DNA of 64,000 bases from the NCBI GenBank assembly GCA_963924555.1, contig OZ004582.1:1240001-1304000 (forward strand), in the 5' to 3' direction. The position numbers and the translations under genes were made by a program. Shown here piece after piece: positions 1,640 through 55,440 of the stretch (position 1 is the first letter of the stretch; the number at the start of each line of letters is the position of its first letter). This stretch comes from Crambe crambe (taxonomy: Eukaryota; Porifera; Demospongiae; Poecilosclerida; Crambeidae). The notes beneath the pieces are model-generated. The model made no database searches and was not told the origin of the DNA. It worked only from the letters and a program-made list of their open reading frames with translations.

Positions 1640-3030
1640 GTAATGTAATTGATTACATTGCAGGTCGTTTAGAGGAGTTACACAGTTCTTCCCAGCAGGC
1701 TGCAAGAAACCTGCAGGATTATATTGCCCTCTCTTCAATACTGCAACATTTTGCAACTTTGTTTTCTGATCGAACAATGGAATTGGAGGATTTGTATTGT
1801 AATCCACGGATGTCATTGACTATTGCCTGCCCAGTAGTAGGAGATGGTAGACCTGGAAGGCCCTCAGTAGTGATATCTGAACAGCAGATCACAACACTAC
1901 TAGACTTGGGTTTCAACTATACTTCTATGGCTGCAATGTTTGGAGTATCAGAGAGAACTTTATTCCGAAGGAGGACTGAGTTAGGACTTCAGACTGGGCG
2001 TCACTATAGCGACATATCTGACGATAACCTAGACACTGTTGTACGCTCTCTAGTACAGGTAAGATTCTATGAAACCAAGGGGAATATTTTAAATGCATTT
2101 TTTCTGTCACAGGAGTCCGTGAATTCAGGGTTGTCTATGATCCGAGGTGGACTTCAAGCGAGGGGAATTATTGTCCAGCGTAGAAGGGTAGCAGATTCTC
2201 TACACAGAGTCGATCCTTTAAGCCAAATAATCCGACGCAGAATAACTACATACCGGAGACGATATTCTGTTCCTACGCCCAACAGTTTATGGTATGCAAA
2301 TCTAATTAATAGGTATTATGAATAATTGGTCGATATTTTAATGAAGGCATATCGATGGGCTGCACAAACTGATTAGGTGGAAATTGGTCATACATGGAGG
2401 TATATATAGAACAGTGGGAGTAGTGAGACGGCAGGTTATGGAGATTTGGATTGTAGAATTACCTTAAGGTCACTTTATTAGAGGGTACTTATTTAGTTAG
2501 TTCAAAATTGATATAAGAATGTGATTACAGCTCAAGAATAGCTATATACTTGAGTGGAGAGGACTGAGCCTAGAGATATGAAAATTTTCACTGCTAAGGT
2601 TGCTAAAAAATCCAAAAGTATAATATATATTATAGTAAACTTGTACCTGTCAATAAACATTACCTTTAAGTTAGTAATAGGGATTGGTGTACAACTTAGT
2701 ACACAACTTAGTACACTCTTACAGTGCCTGTTGTTAGTTTATAGTGGTCAATAAGACTGATCTTTGTCTGTTGTGTTGTTAGGAATTGATGGCTACTCAC
2801 GGCTCATTACCTACATTAACTGCTCAGATAACAATTCAGCTGAAACAGTGCTAGAGTGTTTTCTTTGTGGTGGACATCAGTATGGGTTCCCTTCTCGAGT
2901 GCGGAGTGATTATGGATTAGAGAACTTGCATGTGGCTTACTGGATGATCACTAACATGGGAATAAATTGAGGTAGTCATATTACCGGAAGCTCTGTGCAC
3001 AACCAGAGAATCGAGCGGCTGTGGAGGGAG
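1640..3030 (+). pseudogene. Integrase-like DDE transposase (IS3EU type), copy 1
   Basis: This is the same family as the intact gene at 50849-52342. Over 1690-2325 the frame holds a helical N-terminus, a GRPGRP basic motif and a helix-turn-helix (FGVSERTLFRRR), then conserved SLHRVDP and PNSLW. The catalytic core is spread over later exons: DGLHKLIRW near 2355-2400 (first Asp), GIDGYSRLITYINCSDNN from 2783, RSDYGLEN near 2905-2930 (second Asp) and HNQRIERLWRE near 3000-3030 (Glu). A stop follows NSLWYANLINRYYE, and the region after NMG is also disrupted. The intact copy has no introns in the core, so the intron pattern differs. The 3' end is lost at the repeat starting at 3047. Confidence 0.75.
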
Positions 3031-3046
3031 GTGAATACAGTACCAT

Positions 3047-3170
3047 AGGGCTATACTAGAAAAACGCAAGCATTGTGGGCCCAGGGCAGAGCCTCAAGGA
3101 CGTATGATACATACAGAAATTCTGCTCTTTAGTGTGGGGCTCCGCCCCCAATAATATAGCTGCACTAGCT
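3047..3170 (+). repeat. MITE-like repeat, copy 1 of an inverted pair
   Basis: This stretch (GGGCTATACTAGAA onward, with GCAAGCAT and GGGGCTCCGCCCCC) matches the reverse complement of 4175-4322. The outer ends read GGGCTA and TAGCCC, flanked by TA on both sides, so a TA-target element is possible. Either two MITEs inserted in opposite orientation, or one element with long TIRs spans 3047-4322. Confidence 0.6.
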
Positions 3171-3402
3171 ATTGTATTCATTTACATGTACAACAATTAA
3201 AGCACTTCACAAACTGAAACACTACATTAGACTTGTAATAGGCATTCTATTAGCTATGGTTTTAGTCTTTTCTTATATAATGACCTTTGGCACTAGGGAG
3301 GGATCAAGCCCAGAGGAGGTCGGACACAGTTGACCTTTGAGTGACCTTTAGCAATTATAGTGATAAGTTTTAGGGTCTATAGTGATAAGCACAATCTACG
3401 TA

Positions 3403-5460
3403 TCATGCATTATTCGTAAGATAATCAATAACCTCATCAATAAGAAGAAGAAGGTCCTCCGTCTGGGCATTTTTCGGTATATCCTCGATGCTTGGTAGTT
3501 CGAAATGGGACCCTGGTTCCTCAGCAAGTAAAAATCTTACATACACCGAAAACCTGGTCCTCCTGAGATTAATGAGTGGCCAATAGCTAGCCCAATCATC
3601 TCGAACTCTACTTCCACACCCAAGTGACATTTTGGAAGTCGTTTGGTTTGTCTCCCCTCAAAATAGTTATCATTGATGACCTGTAAAACCTTTTCAAAAA
3701 ATTCATTCCTTAAAGATCCAGCATCTACTCCTTCCTCACCAGAAAAGCGAATTATCAAATTCTTTGAAAGGAGCTGGTTGTCTCTAAGACCTTTCTTGTA
3801 AAAAGTTTGAGCACTGTTCCACACACAGCTTCTGCTTGTATTTATGACATAATCATCAAAAAAATCGATATATTTGGTAGCATGCTCCTGAGTATGTTTG
3901 CAAATCCTTCAGAAGCTGTTATTGCCACATCATCACATTCATCATTGTCTGCCAACCAGTTAACAATCTCATGGGCATTCAGACCCGACTGAATGTATCC
4001 ACAAATTCTATCTGCCTTTCCAGGAAACATTTCCAGCAACATATTTTCCTCCCTTTTGGTAACCTAAGCAATTTTGAATAATGCATAGTTTACTCCATGT
4101 TATTTTGCTATCAACATTCTTTTTTCGTTGACTCTATGGATATAGTCTGTGGCAAAATTGGCAATACTAAATGGCAATGATAATTGGGGGGTGGAGCCCC
4201 ACACTAGGGAGTCTGATGGCAGAATGTCTAGGTCTGTACATTTATTTATATCCATCGTCCGTCCTCAAGGCTCCGCCCCCACGATGCTTGCATTCTTCTA
4301 GTTATTAACAGCACTAGCCCTAATATACCACTTGTTTAAGGTGAAATTACCTTTGTAACACAACTTGAAGCCTCTGGTAGCTGCTGGGCCTCAGTTGAGC
4401 AGCCAGGCAGCCCAGGCCGCCTGGACAGACTTGGAGACGCTGGTGGTTCTTGCTGGGCCAATGCTGGTGGTGGTGAAGGAGGAGCAGATAAAGGAGGTGG
4501 TACATGCATCAGTTGCTGTGCTGAACACTGTGGTATTATGAAAGGTAACATGATACTGTAGCAGTAGTAACACCTCGTTAACACTCACTAGGGGGTAGAG
4601 AGATCTCACATATAAGGCACCTTGTCCACAAAGCAATTTCACCCTTTCTCCTGTGTACTTAAAATCTTCACCAACGTTGGGTAATTTTAAACTGCTTCCA
4701 CATGCCTTAAGGAATTCAAATCTGTAAAAGAAAAAGATCGAAATTAACTCATAAAGGCCACATCCTTTATTATTATGATTACATTGTCATTGCCAACTGA
4801 AATGAAAGTTGAGAAAAGCAGAAACATGCAACCATTAATTGTAGAGCAGAACTAATTACATCCCTATTCCATAAAAATCTGATGCATTGGAAAGGGACTC
4901 TGCCCCAACTGAACAAAAATATGGGATCTGACCCATTCACTTGTCTTTCACATACCTAGGGAAAGGTTTACTGAAATCGAGAGCATTCTTGAAACTACCC
5001 TCAATTTTTTCTCGAACCATTTGTTCAGTCCACGAGGGATAAAAGTCCATAGCATCGGCTACTTGATTTTTATCATGAAGAAGAGACTTCTTTTTCCCCC
5101 TGGGAACAGAGTCGTCCATTCTGTCCACAAGGACCACTTCTTTTGTGTATGAGACTGGCCGTACCCTTCTAGCCTGGCCAGGACCATGTCCAGGGCAATA
5201 CGTCCTCCTGGGAAAATACCTACTCCGGCCTTGGCCAAGAGTAGGGAATCTGGTGGCCACTTCTGTGGTTACACCTTCTACTGCCGAGCTGCATTAATCA
5301 TATTTTAGCTGGTTAATGTAACATAATTATTAGCAAACCTTGAAGCAGTAGGTACGGAGCCTGCATCTGGACTCATATCACCTGAAGAGCCTGGGGACTC
5401 CGAATCAAGTGAAGTTAATATTCTCGATACAATATCCCTAGTTCTCCTGTACTGATCCAT
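3403..5460 (-). pseudogene. HECT-domain protein, copy 1 (spliced, broken)
   Basis: An exon model can be read on the minus strand: 5460-5339 (start MDQYRRTRDIV), 5288-4956, 4721-4589, 4527-4351 and 4063-3403, all with GT-AG borders and matching phases. Exon 2 has a Gly/Arg-rich stretch. Exon 4 is Pro-rich. Exon 5 reads into a HECT N-lobe with RFSGEEGVDAGSLRNEFF, IGLAIGHSLISGGPGF and SIEDIPKNAQTEDLLLLIDE. Two apparent single-base frame slips occur, one in a T7 run near 3854-3862 and one near 3545, so the copy is broken or has sequence errors. The C-lobe with the catalytic Cys is absent. It converges with the integrase remnant, the same arrangement as at 50-54 kb. HECT domains transfer ubiquitin via a Cys thioester; without the C-lobe this copy could not. 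Confidence 0.75.
4175..4322 (-). repeat. MITE-like repeat, copy 2 of an inverted pair
   Basis: Inverted counterpart of 3047-3170, lying in the last intron of the HECT gene (4350-4064). It contains CTCCGCCCCC near 4270 and the matching GGAGCCCC near 4195. Confidence 0.6.
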
Positions 5461-31234: not shown

Positions 31235-31711
31235 GCAGCTGCCTGGACCTGACAATAGCAGAGCTGACACGGTTTTGAATCTCTTTAGAGAGGCAGTTGA
31301 AACTATGGACTTCCATCCAGACTGAAAATTATGGGGTTAGTTACTACTTGTTGAACCATCCACAGCGAGGTCTTGGACGAGGTAGTATCATTCATAATCA
31401 AAGAGTGGAACGTTTTTGGCGTGACCTTTTTGTAGGGTGTAGTAGTATTTTTTATCATCTTTTCTTTCACTTAAGTAGATCTATTCTGCTTGCATTTTGT
31501 ATACAAGAGTTACATTAACTATTCCATAAAGCTATTTGTGGATGCATGGTGTGCACATCCCTTACGATCTGCAGAAAACAGGACACCAAACCAATTATGG
31601 ATTGAGGGGATGATGAGAAATTCCACATCTGGAATGACAGTGACAGAAGAACTCTATGATGATAACTTTGATTTGGTAAATTATTGCTTGCAACAGTGTA
31701 TAGTCTTATGA
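31235..31711 (+). pseudogene. Integrase-like DDE transposase (IS3EU type), copy 2 fragment
   Basis: Pieces in three frames: NNSRADTVLNLFREAVE near 31240-31295, then IIHNQRVERFWRDLFVGCSS (31390-31450, holding the catalytic Glu), then LFVDAWCAHPLRS and NRTPNQLWIEGMMRN (31530-31620). The same blocks occur in order in the intact gene at 51-52 kb. The catalytic Asp motifs are missing. A HECT remnant converges on it at 34126-34620, with a TTAA element and hAT debris in between. Confidence 0.65.
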
Positions 31712-31716
31712 CAACA

Positions 31717-31860
31717 GTCCAGGGTTTCATCTAGGAATTTCTCCTTGGAGGGGGAAGCTGATGGAACGTGGCTGTAAGGCCAGAAGAAAGAATACTTATA
31801 AGTTGGAGGGGAAGCTTCCCCTGCGCCTCCCCCCCCTCCCTTCCTTAGATGAAACCCTGC
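31717..31860. repeat. Short MITE with CAGGGTTTCATCTA ends
   Basis: Left end CAGGGTTTCATCTAGGAAT, right end CTTAGATGAAACCCTG. The same ends occur at about 48226-48513. Interiors are G-rich and unrelated in length (about 140 and 290 bp). CAG...CTG ends suggest hAT, but no 8-bp duplication is clear. Confidence 0.65.
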
Positions 31861-31874
31861 AGTGGGTTCCTTAA

Positions 31875-33482
31875 GGTGGCGGTTCAACCTTCAGTCAAAA
31901 TTTCCACGTTTTTGAAACTACTCTATAAATTGTGAACAATGTTTCTTACATCTACTTTTAGTATCAGAAAAAAGCTCTTTCTTTGCTCTATTCAGCTATG
32001 TATTCAGTACAAAATAAGTATCTAAGGCCTTAAAGCTATGGTAAGTCTGCAGATGCCACTTTACCACACAAGAATCCAAATTAGACCTAAAGTTCAAGTA
32101 GTTACCTGGGTATTTTGGACTCACTAGGACTGCTAGTTGTGTCCCTTTGCAATGTAGCATTCATTTCCTGCTATCTCGGGCCAACCCCCCACGACAGCTG
32201 GTTGCTCCATTTATCCATTCATAAAAAAAATAATTTTTTAATTGAATTTTAATGAGAAATTAAAAATCATGCTTCCGCGCAAAAGGAAGTTAGTGAACAG
32301 GAAGTGGGGAAAAAATCAGGGCTGTTCAACTGACGTAACTTGAGATATGAGGAAGAAGCTGGCCAGCTAAAATCTTTGCTACTAGACTTATTCTCTGTAA
32401 CCACAAGTACAAGTTTTGACATGAGTGACCACAGCAATGGATACTACAGTGTCCCAAAATTTCTTGTCAAATGAAATCCTCTCAATGCTGAGTCCCTTGG
32501 GTGTCCACACTGTGAAATCACACCACTTCCTCCCAGTGATGGCCATCGTGCCCTGCACCTGATAATAGTAGTTGTGATTCCTTTTCAATACTGCCTTGCC
32601 ATTTTCCAGATTGCAGAAAAATCCCTTCAGAGATGTACATGCTTCGCTAGGAGTGATTTCGCGTGCACTGTAGGGACACTTGTACTCGACCAAACCATTG
32701 GGATCTTCATTATCAGGATTGACAACCCAGTTATCAGGACTACATCCCAGCCAACCTTTGAGGGGGTGAATCATGAAGCCTGCTCTAATTGTACGCAAAT
32801 TTGGATGACCATTTTCCTGCATGTACTTCGCATATTCACCCCATGCAATATCTTCATTATCCCTACCCCAGCGAAGGGATGGAGCTGTGAGGGACGAAGA
32901 CGAATAAAGGAGAGTCTACCAGGGATGTCACTGGTGTTGTTTTTCTGCGTTTACACACCTTCCCAAAGTTTGAGGCTGTTAGTCAGAGACCTGAGGGATC
33001 ATCACTTTGTAGACGAGTTTCTTCCTCAATACCTTGAGCCTCTTTGTTGCTAATGGTGAGGTCATGTTTATACTCCTTACAGAGGCGCAGTAGTTCACTC
33101 TGTGACACATCGGGTTGAGTAGCACTGGCTCCATAAGATGCCTGAGCCGCCTTTGAATTGTTCTCTTTGTCTGAATACCTTTAAGAGATATTAATGTGCA
33201 TGAAAGAGGTAAAATTGAAGTGGAAGTACTTTATGTGTTAGTGGAGCCGCCGAGAGGTGACCTGGGAATTGCCTGTGGAGAGGTGGCCCTAATTGTTATG
33301 GCCACTGGGATACTGCTTAGGGTTGGCTTTCTTCAATCCAATCATGCTGGGACCTACCCCTTGTTTGAGTGGAGTGAAATAATACACACCAAAACAAATG
33401 TACAGGAACTCCCAAATAAGGACTATGTATCATCAGGACCATTCATTAACACACGCACTAATTTGAAGGTTGAACCGCCACC
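31875..33482 (-). mobile_element. TTAA-target TIR element carrying a YqaJ-like nuclease
   Basis: The 19-bp TIR GGTGGCGGTTCAACCTTCA (31875-31893) is repeated exactly inverted at 33464-33482, and TTAA lies directly outside each (31871-31874 and 33483-33486). TTAA duplication is a feature of Kolobok and piggyBac. The only gene, on the minus strand, is a YqaJ-type nuclease. No transposase domain remains, so the element is non-autonomous now. Confidence 0.82.
32388..33180 (-). pseudogene. YqaJ-like (lambda-exonuclease family) nuclease
   Basis: The minus strand reads, with frame changes, LTASNFGKVCKRRKTTP (near 32945-33000), then WLGCSPDNWVVN and GLVEYKCPYS (the catalytic SPD and E-x-K motifs), FFCNLENG, and HNYYYQVQGTMAITGRKWCD. 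These are the ordered motifs of YqaJ/lambda-exonuclease-like PD-(D/E)xK nucleases. The C-terminal half (32388-32822) is one open frame; the N-terminal half has at least two breaks. Such nucleases are frequent in cnidarian and sponge genomes, often with SWIM fingers. Whether it acts in transposition is unknown. Confidence 0.75.
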
Positions 33483-33639
33483 TTAAGTGGTTACTACATA
33501 TAACCCATTCCATATGAAGATGACAGTGAAAGTATTGAAGTGCCAGACACTACCTGTCCTATGAGTATTGCTGATATGACGCTATTTTAGCTAGTGACTG
33601 CCATGCAGTGGATGTGTATACTAACGTGAAACAGTTTAA

Positions 33640-34100
33640 CTTCAGGAGACCTGGGCTCTTTACGTTATCTTAGTCGTCAAGGAATAGCCGTTTCAAGCCA
33701 TTCAAGTAAGCAGGGGAATCTGTATCAACTACTTCTAGCCTGGAGCCATAGTAATGATGTCCTTAAAGACTGGATCAATGAATTATGGGTCAAAGTCTTT
33801 GCGCACTCTCTTGGCTACTATGCGTAAACTGACCAGACCTGCATGGTTTTCCATCATAGCAGATGAGGCCACAGATGTCTGTAGTACTGAACAGCTTAAC
33901 TTATCGATTCGCTGGGTCAGTGATGGCTATTGCATTTTTCCGTGTTCCTGACACAAGGTCAGAAACTTTGTTCACTGTTATTAAAGATCTATTGATGAGA
34001 TGTAACATTAGAGCTCTGCAGAGGGCAAGCCTATGACGGTGCAGCAAACATGCATCAGCGAGCTGTATAAAATTGGTATGGCGAATAATCCTCATCTCAA
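33640..34100 (+). pseudogene. hAT transposase fragment (ZMYM1-like)
   Basis: Plus-strand pieces in changing frames: LRYLSRQGIAVSSHSSKQGN, then RPAWFSIIADEATDVCSTEQ (33830-33895), with the conserved DE-T/A-TD block that includes the first catalytic Asp, then FTVIKDLLMRCNI and YDGAANMHQRA (second Asp region). No C-terminal dimerisation domain is present. Confidence 0.65.
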
Positions 34101-34125
34101 TACATTCCTAATACGGAACTGTCTA

Positions 34126-34620
34126 GTACACGTCATACCTCTATAGTTGCCTTGACAGCTGAGATACCACCAAACAAACAGTCTACTACAGCTGGTGACA
34201 AAAACACCGGTCCAGGTCCACCATGAATAATGGACAAAGCAATAATCTTGCCCACATACAAGTATAGTTCATCCTGAAACCAGAATGTGCACCTCTATAA
34301 TGTCACATAACCTAATGTAATTATTGTGCACAATACAATAATTAATTAGATATGGATTCTAAATAACACCCACCAACCTTACCAGACCTACAATCAAAAT
34401 TCTAACCTGAAATGCAGTTGGATTATAGAGTAGGAGGTCCATCAAGAAGCGAACCATTATTAGCTAAAAGACTCATAAAAATTCCTTTCTTGGTCCACCA
34501 TCATCTACTGCTGCTTCAGAAAAAAAAGCACACAAAATTTTCTCTCGTCAAAACCAAGGCGCAAAACTTCAACATTATCTTCAAAAATATGGCTTCTCCG
34601 AGCTGTAATACGAAAAGACT
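34126..34620 (-). pseudogene. HECT-domain fragment, copy 2
   Basis: The minus strand has SEAAVDDGGPRKEFL (34470-34530), a frame change, and, after an intron-like gap, YVGKIIALSIIHGGPGPVFL through VVDCLFGGISAVKAT (34275-34135). AVDDGGPxxEF and HGGPxP are the same blocks as in the 53-kb gene. It converges with the integrase fragment at 31235-31711 and was separated from it by later insertions. Confidence 0.65.
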
Positions 34621-49480: not shown

Positions 49481-50254
49481 AGGCTAAAGACAATTCAATC
49501 TTTCCTATATGTGACTCAATTTAGGAAAAGGGGGCACTTCACGCAAGATAAATTTTTGAGATATGCACGTTTAAACTAGCCTTAGGTAAAAAAACTATTT
49601 TTATCCACTTCTTTTTCCTTGCCTCCACAGTATCTTCAGTCCTTTATCTAACTTCCTGCCAAATTTCAGGAAGTGGGAAGGCTTTGAAGTAGGCAAGCGC
49701 TCGAGTTGAAGTGAGCTACCTCACCCGGAACTTATTTCACATCCTACGTGCCCAAATTTCAATCTTCAATTACGGAGGATGTATGAGCATAATGCGCGGA
49801 AATAAGGGAAATTCCCCACACAACAATAAAAATTCATATTGATGATTTCTACTGAATACAAAGTAGCTACACAGATATTTAACTAGCTACAGATAGGAAG
49901 AGGTTGTGGTAGGAGCCATCCAACTTCATATGTCAGAAGATCCAGATATGGAGGTGCTGGATGAATTCTATGTCTCCTTCAACCCCAAGACAGTAGTCAA
50001 ACACAGCCCAGATCCTACCAGTGTCTAGATTACACCACTTCCACAGGAATCAACCAATACAGCAGAGATAGGATCATAAAACTTATAAGTACTATTAAAA
50101 CTACTGATGTACAAACATCTATCTACCCAAACTTTACCTGATCATTATTCGGAACTTGTTCCATATCTAGGATGCCTCAGATAACCCAAGCGCTCAAAGA
50201 TAACAACGTAGTAAAGCTAAGTCTACTTCTTCTCCACACAGCTGCTACACTATG

Positions 50255-50785
50255 GGGTGCCGTTTGTGTCAAAACATAGAATTTCTGTTGTGATGATTAT
50301 GAAGGCGACGAATTGATAGCTAAGCGACGATATGAGGTGCCAAGCGACGATATGGGGTGCTGTTTGTGTCAAAACATAGAATTTCTGTTGTGATGATTAT
50401 GAAGGCAACGAATTGATAGCTAAGCGACGATATGAGGTGCCGTTTGTGTCAAAACAGAAGGCGACGACTAAGCTAAGCGACGATATGGAGGTGGAGTAGA
50501 GGACGATCTTCAGCTAAAGCTACAATCCGTATGTGTCTAAATAAAATTTCTGTGTTAAAGCGACGATTTGATAGCTAAGCGACGAGATGACATGGTGTAG
50601 ATGACATGGTGTAGAGGGCGACGAATTGATAGCTAAGCGACGGCATGAGGTGGATTAGAGGACTAAACCTATAATCTAAACAAAATTTCTGTGGCGACGA
50701 TTTGATAGCCAAAGCTACAATCGATGAAAGGTGATGATTATTATTATGGGAGGCGACGATTAATTTTTATAGCGACGGTATACAT
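50255..50785. repeat. GCGACGA-rich tandem array upstream of the integrase gene
   Basis: Units of about 30-110 bp with TAGCTAAGCGACGATATGAG, GGCGACGAATTGATAGC and CCGTTTGTGTCAAAACATAG repeat. The GCGACG hexamer (or a one-base variant) occurs about 14 times in 530 bp. The first three long units are nearly identical. It stops about 70 bp before the integrase ATG, a position expected for subterminal repeats. Confidence 0.8.
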
Positions 50786-50848: not shown

Positions 50849-52342
50849 ATGGCTTCAAGATTTTTTGAACAGTTACAAGGAGAGTTAGTTTCTTCCATAC
50901 AGGAAGTACTTACTTCCACAGGACTGATGGACGTTGAAGAAGAAAGGTATGGCTAGTAAGTGTTAGGTGTTCACACTACAGTACTAAGGAGTTGTATTAT
51001 GGCATCCTAATAGAGCTGCATAGTGATACATGAACTGTTGGTGTATTGGTGCTACATTTAGAAAGATAGTTCAACTAGTTATAGAATGATTACCATGATA
51101 GCTATGGCAAAGGTGTGATGATGCTATAATTAGAATGACTATAGCGTGATCACTTACAAGTCTAGATGTTTAGTATGTGTTGTATATTTATGTAGAATCC
51201 CTGGACGCCCATTACTAGAAATTTCTGTAGAAAAGATCGAATATCTTCGTCATTTAAGGTTTTCTTGGACTAAGATAGCGGACATTCTTGGAGTCAGCCG
51301 ATCTACCCTGTATCGTCGTTTGGATAGAGAAGGTATTGATCTAACTACCACATATTCAAATATAAATGACCATGAATTGGACAGAATAGTGAAATCCATT
51401 AAAGAAAGTCACCCCAATGATGGGGAGAGGTTACTGATTGGTCATCTCAGTAGCCTTGGCATTATTTTGCCTAGATCTCGCATAAGGGCTTCAATTCATC
51501 GGGTGGACCCAATCAATACAGCTATTAGAAGAAGCATTGCTATTCAGAGACGTGTTTACTGTGTTAGTGGGCCTAATTCTTTATGGCACATAGATGGCCA
51601 TCACAAGTTAATTAAGTACCGATTCGTCACTCATGGGGGAATAGACGGTTTTTCTATAGTATACCTTCGCTGTAGTACCAACAACACAGCACCTACTGTC
51701 TTGGCATCTTTTGCAGATGCAGTTAGTAAGTATGGTATACCAAATCAAGTTCGATCTGACCAAGGAGGAGAAAATGTAGATGTATGGCGTTACATGTTGG
51801 AACAGACTAACTCTGACTCAGCTGTTGTAGTTGGTGCATCAACACATAATCAAAGGATTGAGCGCCTCTGGCGCGATGTCCACAGATGTGTTAGTAGTGT
51901 GTATGGTGATCTTTTTAGGATCATGGAGGATGATGAAAAACTTAACTGCTTAAATGAAGTAGATCTTTTCTGTTTGCACACTGTATTCTTGCCCAGAATA
52001 AATGATCATTTGGACTCGTTCGTTGAATGCTGGAACAACCATGCACTGTCAACTTCCAACAACTTAACTCCGAACCAACTTTTTATACAGGGTGCATTGA
52101 GACAAAATATGATTCCAGTATTCCCCACCTCTACTCCTATCACTAATAGCTTACAACTCCCATCATCAAACAATGCAGTGTCTGTTCCCAGATCAACTTT
52201 CACACCATGTGATCATCTTCTGCGTGAACTTGATCAAAGGGATATGCTTCAAGAAAGTGATGATTTTGGATATAGAATCTATAGAAGAGTATGTTACACT
52301 ATTGGCTTACATTTACAGCACTGTTCTGATTGTTCATATTGA
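50849..52342 (+). CDS. Integrase-like DDE transposase (IS3EU type), intact copy
   Basis: Exon 1 (50849-50946, MASRFFEQLQGELVSSIQEV) ends at GTATGG; exon 2 (51196-52342) starts after TATGTAG and joins in phase, giving about 414 residues with no stop. Domains in order: short helical leader; GRPLLE with a helix-turn-helix (WTKIADILGVSRSTLYRRLD); a linker helix region with SIHRVDP; the RNase-H-like core with Asp in LWHIDGHHKL, Asp in VRSDQGGENV and Glu in HNQRIERLWRDVH, a D,D(33)E triad; and a C-terminal NNLTPNQLFIQG. This resembles the integrase-like transposases called IS3EU. Without the splice, translation would need an upstream start in the intron. It faces a HECT gene whose stop lies about 110 bp away. 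Confidence 0.85.
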
Positions 52343-52450
52343 TCAAAATTAAGCCGAAATCAATGTTATGTTAAAACAACAACAGAATGAGATGATTGTT
52401 TGATATATTGAATGGGTGTGAAGTAAAGTGAGCCTATAAGATGATCAGTA

Positions 52451-54706
52451 TTATACATGTCCAAACCCTGCTGAATTAAGAATTCCATACACCATTGAGT
52501 AAATGAAAGTATCACAAGAGGGAAGGGGCCTTTTCACTGGGAGATACAATGTGTTGAAACAAGTATTTGCCTTAGGATAATGATTTTCTACATGAAAAGC
52601 AATTGTAGGTGGTTGAATAAACCCAGCAGGGGGTGGATGACTAGCACCAGTAGTGAATTCAAGAATAGTTTCATAGCTGATATTGAATACATCAGTTCCA
52701 CAACTTCCCACTAACTCCAATTTACCACGATCAGCTTGAAAAATAATTCAAAATAATTAACTTCTAATATATACACGAGGTTTAATGTATGACTTACCAT
52801 CTATCCTTTCAATAAAGTTAACCCAGTACATCCAGATTTGTTCTTCATCTTCTCGTCTGTTTGAACATTCTGGTGAAAATCTCGACTGAAACAGGTCTAT
52901 CATAAAATCAGCAGTAAGAGGCTTGGGGTTTGAGGTAAACAATCTTTTCATGATATGTGGGTTGCATTTCATTAAGTCATAAACTCCAATAGCACCTAAA
53001 CCTTCAATGAGCTGGTCAATCTGTGCCTTAACTTGAACAATGGTAAAGTGAGTTGATAATGATTGCAGAAGGTGAAAGCGATCACTGAGATGTAATTTAG
53101 ACGACAAATCTGAAATGCCCACTTCAAATCTGAAATCAAAACTATCATCATCCAATAGGGTCCTCATTTCTTGTGTAGTTTGTGTTGCTTGCAACTAAAC
53201 ATTTAAAGAGAAAGAGTGATTTTATTTAAGAAGTGAAGAATACATACAGCTAGTGCAGTGCTTTGAACTAACCTCTTCCAACTTTTTCCTGATCTTTTTA
53301 GTAGGCACTTCTTCAACACTAGCTCTAGCCTTCATACCATGAATCATATAATCAATAACACATGGAGCAAGAAATGCTGGTGAAGGACCTCCATGGATGA
53401 GTGAAACAGATATCATTTCTCCAATACGGCGATATACTTGATCTTCAAGCCCCTTAATATTGCATGTTGGAACACGCAATGAAGGTTCACCTTGAAAAAA
53501 TGAATTATTTGTTCCAATAGCACCCATTAAAAGTCTCAAAAATTCTCTCAGAGGTCCCCCATCATCGACAGCAGGTTCCCCCACGATATACTGATTGAAA
53601 TTGATACCATACTGAAACTTTTTAAGTGCATCTTCCCACACATGTTTCCTCCTCACAATGATTCTCTGACAATCAGATTTATCAACAGGTAAATATTTGG
53701 CTTTTTGTCTCTGAAGAAGCAACTCAAGTGATATTCCATCACTAAAACAATTAAAAGTTACGTAAAGGTTACACTAGTGATGAGATTTGAGCCTAGCTAT
53801 ACATCCGAGTACTGGTGAAACTGTTTTTGATTCAGTCTTATCATAGGCCATACTCTTGAATCTACCTTCTTTTATGAATCCCCTTAGAATGTACCTTAAG
53901 GTTACTATTATTACCAATTTTAGCCAAAAATGAAAGTTATTAATCCTGCTTGGAATACAATTATGACTTATTAATATGAAGGCATGGGTCCAGTATCAAT
54001 ACTGTATTGGAGTTAATCTAAAAACATTCTCTATAACTGGTAAGTCAATACCAATTAATAATAATAGTAATCTCAAGGTACCATGCATATACCCCCACCC
54101 AACTTTGACGGTCAAATATCACTTTACCCAGCAGAAAAAAACAGTCCAAATATACTGAATGTTTGCAACAAGAAAGTAGCTAGCTTTAAGTCCTTGAGGT
54201 CAATAAACAAATAGTATACACAGTAACAGAGTATTGGGTTACTTAAGTAAGGCAATGAGATTTTACATTTTGGTGCAAACATTCTGCAATCTCCTACCAT
54301 TGATCAGGTGGTGTTAGTGGAGACATTGGAGGGGGTAGAGGGCTAGCTGTTTCAGCACAGATCACTGTATCTTCTTCATCACTGACTAAATTTATATATT
54401 CACTATAGGGGGGAAAGTGTAAAGTATACATTATCCTATCACTTTTTCAATCATACCACTTTTTTTGCTGATTGTTTAGGCACCTTCTTAGGCACAGTAT
54501 GGTTTATCTTTGTGTCTTGTTTGATCTTTACATCTATAAGGTCATCTTCAAAATGTGCCGAATTAAGATCATCATCATAATTTGGTGATAACTACACACA
54601 TGACATTATACTAAAGTTAATAATAATATATTATTTCAAAAGATTACCTCCAACTCATCTTGAGCTAAAATATATATTGGAGTTTTTGCATTCCTCCCTG
54701 CTACAG
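52451..54706 (-). CDS. HECT-domain ubiquitin-ligase-like gene, copy 3 (3' part preserved)
   Basis: Minus-strand exons with good splice sites: 54706(?)-54648, 54591-54457 (acidic, then Lys-rich), 54402-54298 (acidic, Pro-rich), 53741-53273, 53194-52798 and 52734-52451. The HECT N-lobe shows GEPAVDDGGPLREFLRLL and SVSLIHGGPSPAFLAP; the C-lobe shows ILEFTTGASHPPPAGF and ANTCFNTLYLP, where Cys of TCFN is the expected catalytic residue, then FGHV at the end. HECT enzymes form a Cys-ubiquitin thioester, so this copy could be catalytic. The 5' part is separated by retroelement insertions (54.73-56.87 kb). A frame with a coiled coil at 57293-57081 may be an upstream exon. Confidence 0.78.
53750..54290. 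other. Probable intron of the HECT gene
   Basis: AT-rich, no conserved block. The plus frame 53976-54158 has no support. Confidence 0.4.
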
Positions 54707-54729
54707 CACTTGGGGTCCACTTATAAGAC

Positions 54730-55440
54730 CTAGAAAGTTCTGGTATCATTAGACTTGTAGGTCCTGAGTACAATACTCGACTTCTGTAAGGACAGATCTG
54801 GAAACAGTGTCTTCCAGGTTGTCTGTGACATAATAGTGACAGCAGCCCCAGTATCAACTTCCATAGGGACTGTCCTCCCATTGATTTGCACATCAACAAC
54901 TATTGGTTTTGGGGAATTACGCTGCCTAACCGTGAAGAGGCTTAGCTCCTCTCCATCTGCCTCTTTGTCTGAGTTCGAGGTAATACACTTGGTGGACTGC
55001 GATTGACGTTGGTGGCTTCTGTGACCACCCTTGTTGTCTGATTTGTTCTTGCTCAGATTTAAGTCGGCTAGTTGCCACAATTGCGGCAAGACAGGCCATA
55101 TCTCCACCGTGTGTAGACAGCCCAGGCACCAATGTTTACAAGAGACTAGATCTGACAAGAGACTCTTGATGCTCGAGTGTTCAGAGTTGTTGCCGAAGCT
55201 CTTTGCGTCTCTTGCTGCTGCCTCTGCTATGGTTGCTAATTCCACAGCTCGCTTGAGAGTTAGCGTTTCTTCTGATAGGAATGAACTGGTCTCGCAGGGA
55301 GTCATCCAAATTGGTGCCAAATTGACAGTGGAGAGCTAGACGGCGAAGTTCAGCAATAAATTCAGTGACCGATTCAGTAGGTACTGTCGCCGTTTCTTGA
55401 AGGTGCATCGCTGGGCCAGGAAAGATGGCTTTGGATCATA
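54730..55440 (-). pseudogene. Ty3/gypsy gag-protease fragment
   Basis: Minus strand: ESVTEFIAELRRLALHCQFG and SLRDQFI (gag), SEETLTLKRAVELATIAEAA, then VDVQINGRTVPMEVDTGAAV (retropepsin with an intact DTG). The region where the zinc knuckle should be reads poorly on this strand, while the plus strand reads a canonical knuckle (see 55055-55150). It ends abruptly against HECT exon sequence near 54710, with no RT. Confidence 0.7.
55055..55150 (+). other. Zinc knuckle on the opposite strand: micro-inversion
   Basis: The plus strand encodes FKSASCHNCGKTGHISTVCR, a perfect C-x2-C-x4-H-x4-C knuckle, inside a gag-protease fragment that is otherwise minus. The minus strand has no CCHC at this point. 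A local inversion of roughly 80-100 bp explains it. Confidence 0.6.

Follow-up and report, generated by a model that had tools for sequence, protein, structure and literature searches.

A predicted HECT ubiquitin ligase as the second gene of probable IS3EU-type transposons in the sponge Crambe crambe

IS3EU (IS3EU/GingerRoot) transposons combine an IS3/IS481-like integrase transposase with TA..TA termini (PMC10045372), which in fungal families read TAYGG..CCRTA (PMC12730594), and with 6-bp target-site duplications (TSDs); the term HECT has no occurrence in the accessible parts of these two papers, which are also our source for these traits. Elements in the genome of Crambe crambe share the transposase type, the termini and the TSD length, and differ in carrying a HECT gene. 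Our starting point was one stretch of 64,000 nucleotides (the window, C3:1240001-1304000; contigs are labelled C1, C3 and so on), in which an integrase-type transposase gene on the plus strand is followed by a convergent HECT gene on the minus strand. The pair very probably represents an IS3EU-type cut-and-paste transposon that encodes, between terminal inverted repeats (TIRs), a D,D(33/34)E transposase and a predicted HECT E3 ubiquitin ligase.

Both ends were found for 11 elements of 6.0-7.5 kb. In all 11 the termini read TATGG...CCATA and the TIRs enclose both genes, in line with an earlier sequence-only reading of the window, which had proposed a two-gene DNA transposon of IS3EU affinity with a HECT-like second protein; the termini and the TSDs both match that family. 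The TSD is a perfect 6-bp repeat in nine elements, agrees at five of six bases in one and is absent from one (Table 1). Six near-identical copies on five contigs have their TIRs (TATGGCRGGGTATA...TATACCCCGCCATA) outside both genes, and the HECT frame and the transposase core are each open in five of the six; a host HECT gene standing beside old transposons is ruled out by these copies, which hold the HECT gene inside the TIRs. The terminus of the window copy recurs on four elements (with a single changed base on one), again with both genes enclosed, and its first 20 bases, at 50251, are identical to the termini of C1:7029907-7035895, C1:7245032-7251526 and C3:322558-328849. When termini were searched for free of any limit on position, only the outer two copies appeared in each of three fetched elements.

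The two genes are also linked across the genome (143 Mb in 119 contigs), for which all counts of integrase and HECT loci are lower bounds. The transposase query gave at least 111 matches in at least 83 clusters, and HECT loci, sought with PF00632 and three protein queries, fell into at least 117 clusters. Within 5 kb of the 83 integrase clusters, the nearest HECT was convergent at 47, divergent at 5 and on the same strand at 3, with none at 28. Shifting positions along the contig yielded a mean of 0.4 convergent pairs (maximum 3 in 1,000 runs) and local shifts of 20-200 kb a mean of 0.78 (maximum 4 in 1,000 runs), the lengths of C15, C18 and C19 being approximate in these controls. Chance linkage, which the sequence-only reading had already discounted, is ruled out by the shift controls together with the TIRs that enclose both genes.

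Among the 28 unlinked clusters, a convergent HECT fragment was present at C8:6171149 and C19:2311303 and a head-to-head HECT at C11:1480515 and C9:1575272; the 5' domain of a HECT gene lay head to head nearby at C9:3940516, C11:198049, C17:6624946 and C21:3458796, and 7.7 kb off at C13:2621778; and a divergent HECT lay 8.9 kb from the integrase at C9:8570615. No HECT was found on the side examined at C1:8464584/8470017, C5:6065824 and C6:2450262. The final tally for the 83 clusters is 49 convergent, 13 divergent (five identified by the 5' domain of the HECT gene alone), 3 on the same strand and 18 with none found (14 of these from the genome-wide search only). Conversely, 51 of 69 transposon-type HECT clusters, obtained with two transposon HECT queries, have an integrase (from the 83 clusters plus 20 hand-picked pieces) at most 5 kb away, as against none of the 27 clusters of strongest PF00632 matches, which were built from the 42 best matches under a cut-off of our choosing and taken as host genes.

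Of the 83 integrase clusters, 20 are on contig C3 (17 below 3 Mb), as are 11 of the 14 HECT clusters without an integrase within 10 kb; this contig is perhaps a graveyard or a region of low recombination. Short integrase fragments are scattered over many contigs, at least 17 at 28-82 (frames of 70-72 amino acids) and at least 12 at 141-183/186 (frames of 42-54 amino acids), and are perhaps non-autonomous IS3EU derivatives.

The HECT proteins retain the residues expected of active ligases in most families. The catalytic Cys stands in a TC context in 12 of the 12 families in which the C-lobe was read, a Phe occupies position -4 in 11 of the 12, and the N-lobe Asp pattern matched ten families, with the Asp invariant in all six rows of alignments A2 and A3; the Cys and Asp searches were seeded with those motifs, and families without them could not appear. 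Yeast Rsp5 requires both Asp495 and the -4 Phe806 for ligation (PMC3738095), and by our reading the xDxGG motif holds Asp495. HECT-domain scores exceed the Pfam cut-off of 23.9 bits in the window (46.2), in the C16 family (38.2) and in the element at C1:7029907-7035895 (L060; 27.8). Six between-family comparisons gave proportions of synonymous differences (pS) of 0.64-0.84 and of nonsynonymous differences (pN) of 0.31-0.49 for HECT and 0.30-0.47 for the transposase, from codons in tblastn alignments, which are biased to conserved parts. Judged by these codons, constraint on HECT is similar to that on the transposase, and the HECT gene seems to be kept by selection.

By sequence, there are at least three HECT lineages in these transposons: a G2E3-like lineage with introns (window, L057, L058 and L059), a single-exon HECT-domain lineage (C16 and L060) and a third in the head-to-head families C9 and C11. 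Profiles built from the first two lineages find matches among solved HECT structures. Seven families of the fetched loci have an N-terminal domain of about 120 amino acids (C9, C11, L057, L058, L059, L060 and, by its end only, the window); in alignment A5, which includes one Amphimedon row, its identity to the L057 domain is 38-59% in the five other rows. This domain has no significant relative in Pfam or the PDB, and a profile search did not detect it in the C16 family. The C9 and C11 proteins may also have a CUE-like segment ahead of the HECT domain.

Trees were built for 11 loci, leaving out L017, L019, L020 and L028 (partial HECT or near-duplicates). The HECT and transposase trees share four groupings (Mantel r 0.44, p 0.0025), and L058 with L059, C16 with L031, and C9 with C11 are joined in both with support of 0.94-1.00. 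L060 is a clear mosaic of these lineages, in which the HECT catalytic module appears to have been swapped: its transposase groups with the window and L057 (0.93), its TIR is of the window group and its N-terminal domain is 59% identical to that of L057, and its HECT catalytic domain groups with C16 and L031 (1.00). A ligase was replaced by a ligase, and we therefore argue that function was kept.

The window copy itself is a damaged member of this family whose HECT domain is open. Splice sites and the D-D(33)-E spacing (on P0001) of its transposase were read by eye, and the nearest NCBIfam models are IS481 (E=2.2e-12) and IS3 (8.7e-8), both under the model cut-offs. The transposase had been called an intact D,D(33)E enzyme; the open frame, the PF24764 match and the triad are present, and 'intact' can refer to the open frame only, because two residues after DGFS that are present in the 18 other rows of alignment A1 are absent. 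The HECT gene lies 108 bp past the transposase stop, and three of its exons span 52451-53741 (limits 53741-53273, 53194-52798 and 52734-52451, by eye) and when joined match PF00632 (E=6.4e-12, 46.2 bits). The complete C-lobe and TCFN Cys ascribed to it are there, completeness being limited to the catalytic domain: upstream pieces are recognizable as far as about 54,758, and the 5' part is lost beyond about 54,760. At that border begins an open reading frame that we take, by its VDTGAAVT motif, to be gag/protease-like and of a long terminal repeat (LTR) element; we infer that the insertion carrying it cut the HECT gene. The wrecks of the same convergent pair reported at 1640-5460 and 31235-34620 were recovered, with integrase and HECT pieces at each. 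The broken state of the window copy, the head-to-head architecture and the swappable HECT modules are features beyond that reading. A 29-nt inverted repeat (86%) surrounds 133 nt between HECT exons (53891-54081), perhaps a small miniature inverted-repeat transposable element (MITE). A copy on C14 matches the window over 51184-52757 and by two further matches of 25-27 bases; a TIR-pair search of that copy gave none.

Table 1. Features of the window (positions within it) and of transposons elsewhere in the genome (contig:positions)
Feature	Position	Strand	Evidence or TSD
Transposase ORF	51146-52342	+	open reading frame
Transposase exon 1, MASRFFEQLQ...	50849-50946	+	ATG and GT donor by eye; in-frame junction with exon 2
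Transposase exon 2, with helix-turn-helix and D,D(33)E integrase core	51196-52342	+	PF24764 E=3.5e-72
Left TIR end, TATGGGGTGCCGTTTGTGTC...	50251-50283	+	exact 20-base terminus match to three elements
Two extra near-copies of terminus	50351-50370, 50431-50450	+	one mismatch each; shuffles mean 0.00
HECT last exon, encoding the C-lobe with catalytic Cys (NTCFN) and -4 Phe (FGHV stop)	52451-52734	-	PF00632 E=1e-8
HECT middle exon	52798-53194	-	splice sites; alignment A2
HECT exon with N-lobe motif AVDDGG	53273-53741	-	motif search, splice sites
HECT 5' exon pieces, break inside conserved N-terminal domain (YKWTPSAVAGRNAKTPIYILAQDELE)	54290-54758	-	tblastx to L057; genome match 54651-54758; A5 profile E=1.5e-8
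Presumed gag/protease-like ORF, outside transposon	54733-55335	-	VDTGAAVT motif
Wreck 1, integrase piece	2779-3039	+	genome searches
Wreck 1, HECT piece	3531-3743	-	genome searches
Wreck 2, integrase piece	31472-31636	+	genome searches
Wreck 2, HECT piece	34139-34279	-	genome searches
Near-identical copy 1	C16:816555-822641		TSD TTTGAC
Near-identical copy 2	C5:4845488-4851900		TSD ATCTGT
Near-identical copy 3	C9:3772032-3778443		TSD ATCAAT
Near-identical copy 4	C1:5438680-5445096		TSD TCCGGG
Near-identical copy 5	C1:5445229-5451653		no TSD
Near-identical copy 6	C8:5411636-5418048		TSD CCAGAG
Window-terminus element	C12:6704954-6711734		TSD GAAATC
Window-terminus element L060	C1:7029907-7035895		TSD TGACAA
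Window-terminus element	C1:7245032-7251526		TSD GATATA/GTTATA
Window-terminus element	C3:322558-328849		TSD CGCCGG
Head-to-head element, 7515 bp	C11:1475316-1482830		TSD TAGATC

Several observations weigh against a HECT-carrying transposon family of this kind. At 18 of the 83 integrase loci no HECT was found, and three have theirs on the same strand. One of the TIR-pair searches sought ends solely outside both genes; the ends of four loci (window, C14, C10 and C9 family) were sought and not recovered, and a right TIR for the window copy was sought within the window, with none found. The grouping of the window with L057 has support of 0.99 in the HECT tree and 0.55 in the transposase tree, the position of L043 differs between the two trees and is weakly supported, and the groupings of L060 conflict between them. 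L060 is also the family that lacks the -4 Phe, its protein ending MDAI, and the joined C9 HECT protein gave no Pfam match, its Amphimedon relative carrying PF00632. Between-family synonymous divergence (dS) is saturated, and near-identical pairs, with few changes and ratios from 0 to 0.9, are for that reason little informative.

How such an element might use a ligase can be sketched from the domains. The transposase would cut and join at the TATGG ends, and the HECT protein would take ubiquitin from a host E2 onto its catalytic Cys and hand it to a target picked by its N-terminal half. Taken together, the sequences suggest that the elements benefit from tagging proteins. We tentatively propose that the most likely target is a host factor that keeps transposition in check, for example a protein involved in silencing or repair. 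Among viruses, the use of ubiquitin ligases against host defences is common.

We favour such a host factor over the element's own transposase, on which the ligase might instead act, either limiting its level or clearing the complex after integration, much as ClpX clears the Mu complex; this reading is possible, if rather doubtful. L060 speaks for it, in that the targeting N-terminal domain goes with the transposase and TIR lineage and the catalytic part with the C16 lineage, which would fit a need for targeting half and transposase to match, but plain linkage and one crossover would yield the same pattern. A mere passenger role for the HECT gene, with a single capture from the host and no help to the transposon, is improbable: transposon capture of host genes is common and G2E3-like HECT genes are annotated in animals, but the catalytic residues are kept over divergent families, HECT is constrained much like the transposase, one HECT has been swapped for another and two gene orientations exist. 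Almost no weight can be given to unrelated genes co-clustering in repeat-rich regions, for which C3, with its many fragments of the two genes (20 of 83 integrase clusters), might be cited, but against which stand the local shifts (47 observed pairs) and, in our view decisively, the TSDs and the TIRs that enclose both genes.

We suggest, speculatively, that HECT may be an ancient and near-obligate second gene of animal IS3EU elements, directed against a host restriction factor or serving transpososome management, and that IS3EU may have a general slot for a protein-modifying enzyme, filled by HECT in animals and by an alpha-kinase in fungi, with a catalytic module that can be swapped between families, as in C1:7029907-7035895. 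If so, many multicopy genes annotated as 'G2/M phase-specific E3 ligase-like' in sponges, echinoderms and other animals would be transposon genes. The elements described here offer an origin for HECT genes now attributed to hosts, make transposon counter-defence through protein degradation directly testable and give the fungal alpha-kinase elements a place in a wider pattern.

Other integrase-type systems fit less well. Polintons, Ginger1 and Ginger2 likewise have an integrase-type transposase. Polintons carry a DNA polymerase; none was noticed by eye in the open reading frame lists of the elements and the window, with no dedicated search made. Ginger1 and Ginger2 were set aside because of TSD length, 6 bp here against 4-5 bp (PMC10045372). 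No relatives were found among viral contigs. Three short contigs (L061-L063; LWTN01000118, -139 and -127) binned as a Cycloclasticus symbiont of a poecilosclerid sponge encode IS3EU-like integrases, and four query pieces run by tblastn gave no HECT match in them; L062 has an LTR-retroelement-like frame beside its integrase, and all three are likely sponge DNA in a bacterial bin. In the open literature, with Repbase and most subscription papers outside the search, no paper was found that joins IS3EU with HECT and none that joins transposon, HECT domain and Repbase; nor does HECT occur in the accessible part of PMC4255032. The literature searched yielded no description of a eukaryotic DNA transposon that encodes a ubiquitin ligase with its catalytic residues kept, although curators of Repbase may already have noted the partner gene.

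The HECT proteins do have relatives under other names. Two relatives with a HECT domain, one from Dysidea avara (36% over 67%) and one from Apostichopus japonicus (30% over 57%), are named G2/M phase-specific E3 ubiquitin-protein ligase (G2E3)-like; the genes described here differ in sitting in a transposon and in encoding the N-terminal domain of about 120 amino acids. Over its full length, the divergent-type HECT protein has its best match in Amphimedon queenslandica LOC109586463 (P0122), annotated as an uncharacterized gene, which is 42% identical over 99% and has the same N-terminal domain and PF00632. Two further Amphimedon relatives of the transposon-type HECT, LOC109582514 and LOC109582511 (P0123 and P0125), have ankyrin-type Pfam matches, which may reflect host co-option or gene-model fusion. 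A close parallel in architecture is the fungal TET+ IS3EU (PMC12730594), which has the same TAYGG..CCRTA ends, a 6-bp TSD and a protein-modifying enzyme opposite the transposase; there an alpha-kinase is the partner and a TET/JBP gene lies between the two, whereas here the partner is a HECT ligase. In view of that fungal alpha-kinase, IS3EU elements may quite generally have a modifying enzyme set opposite their transposase.

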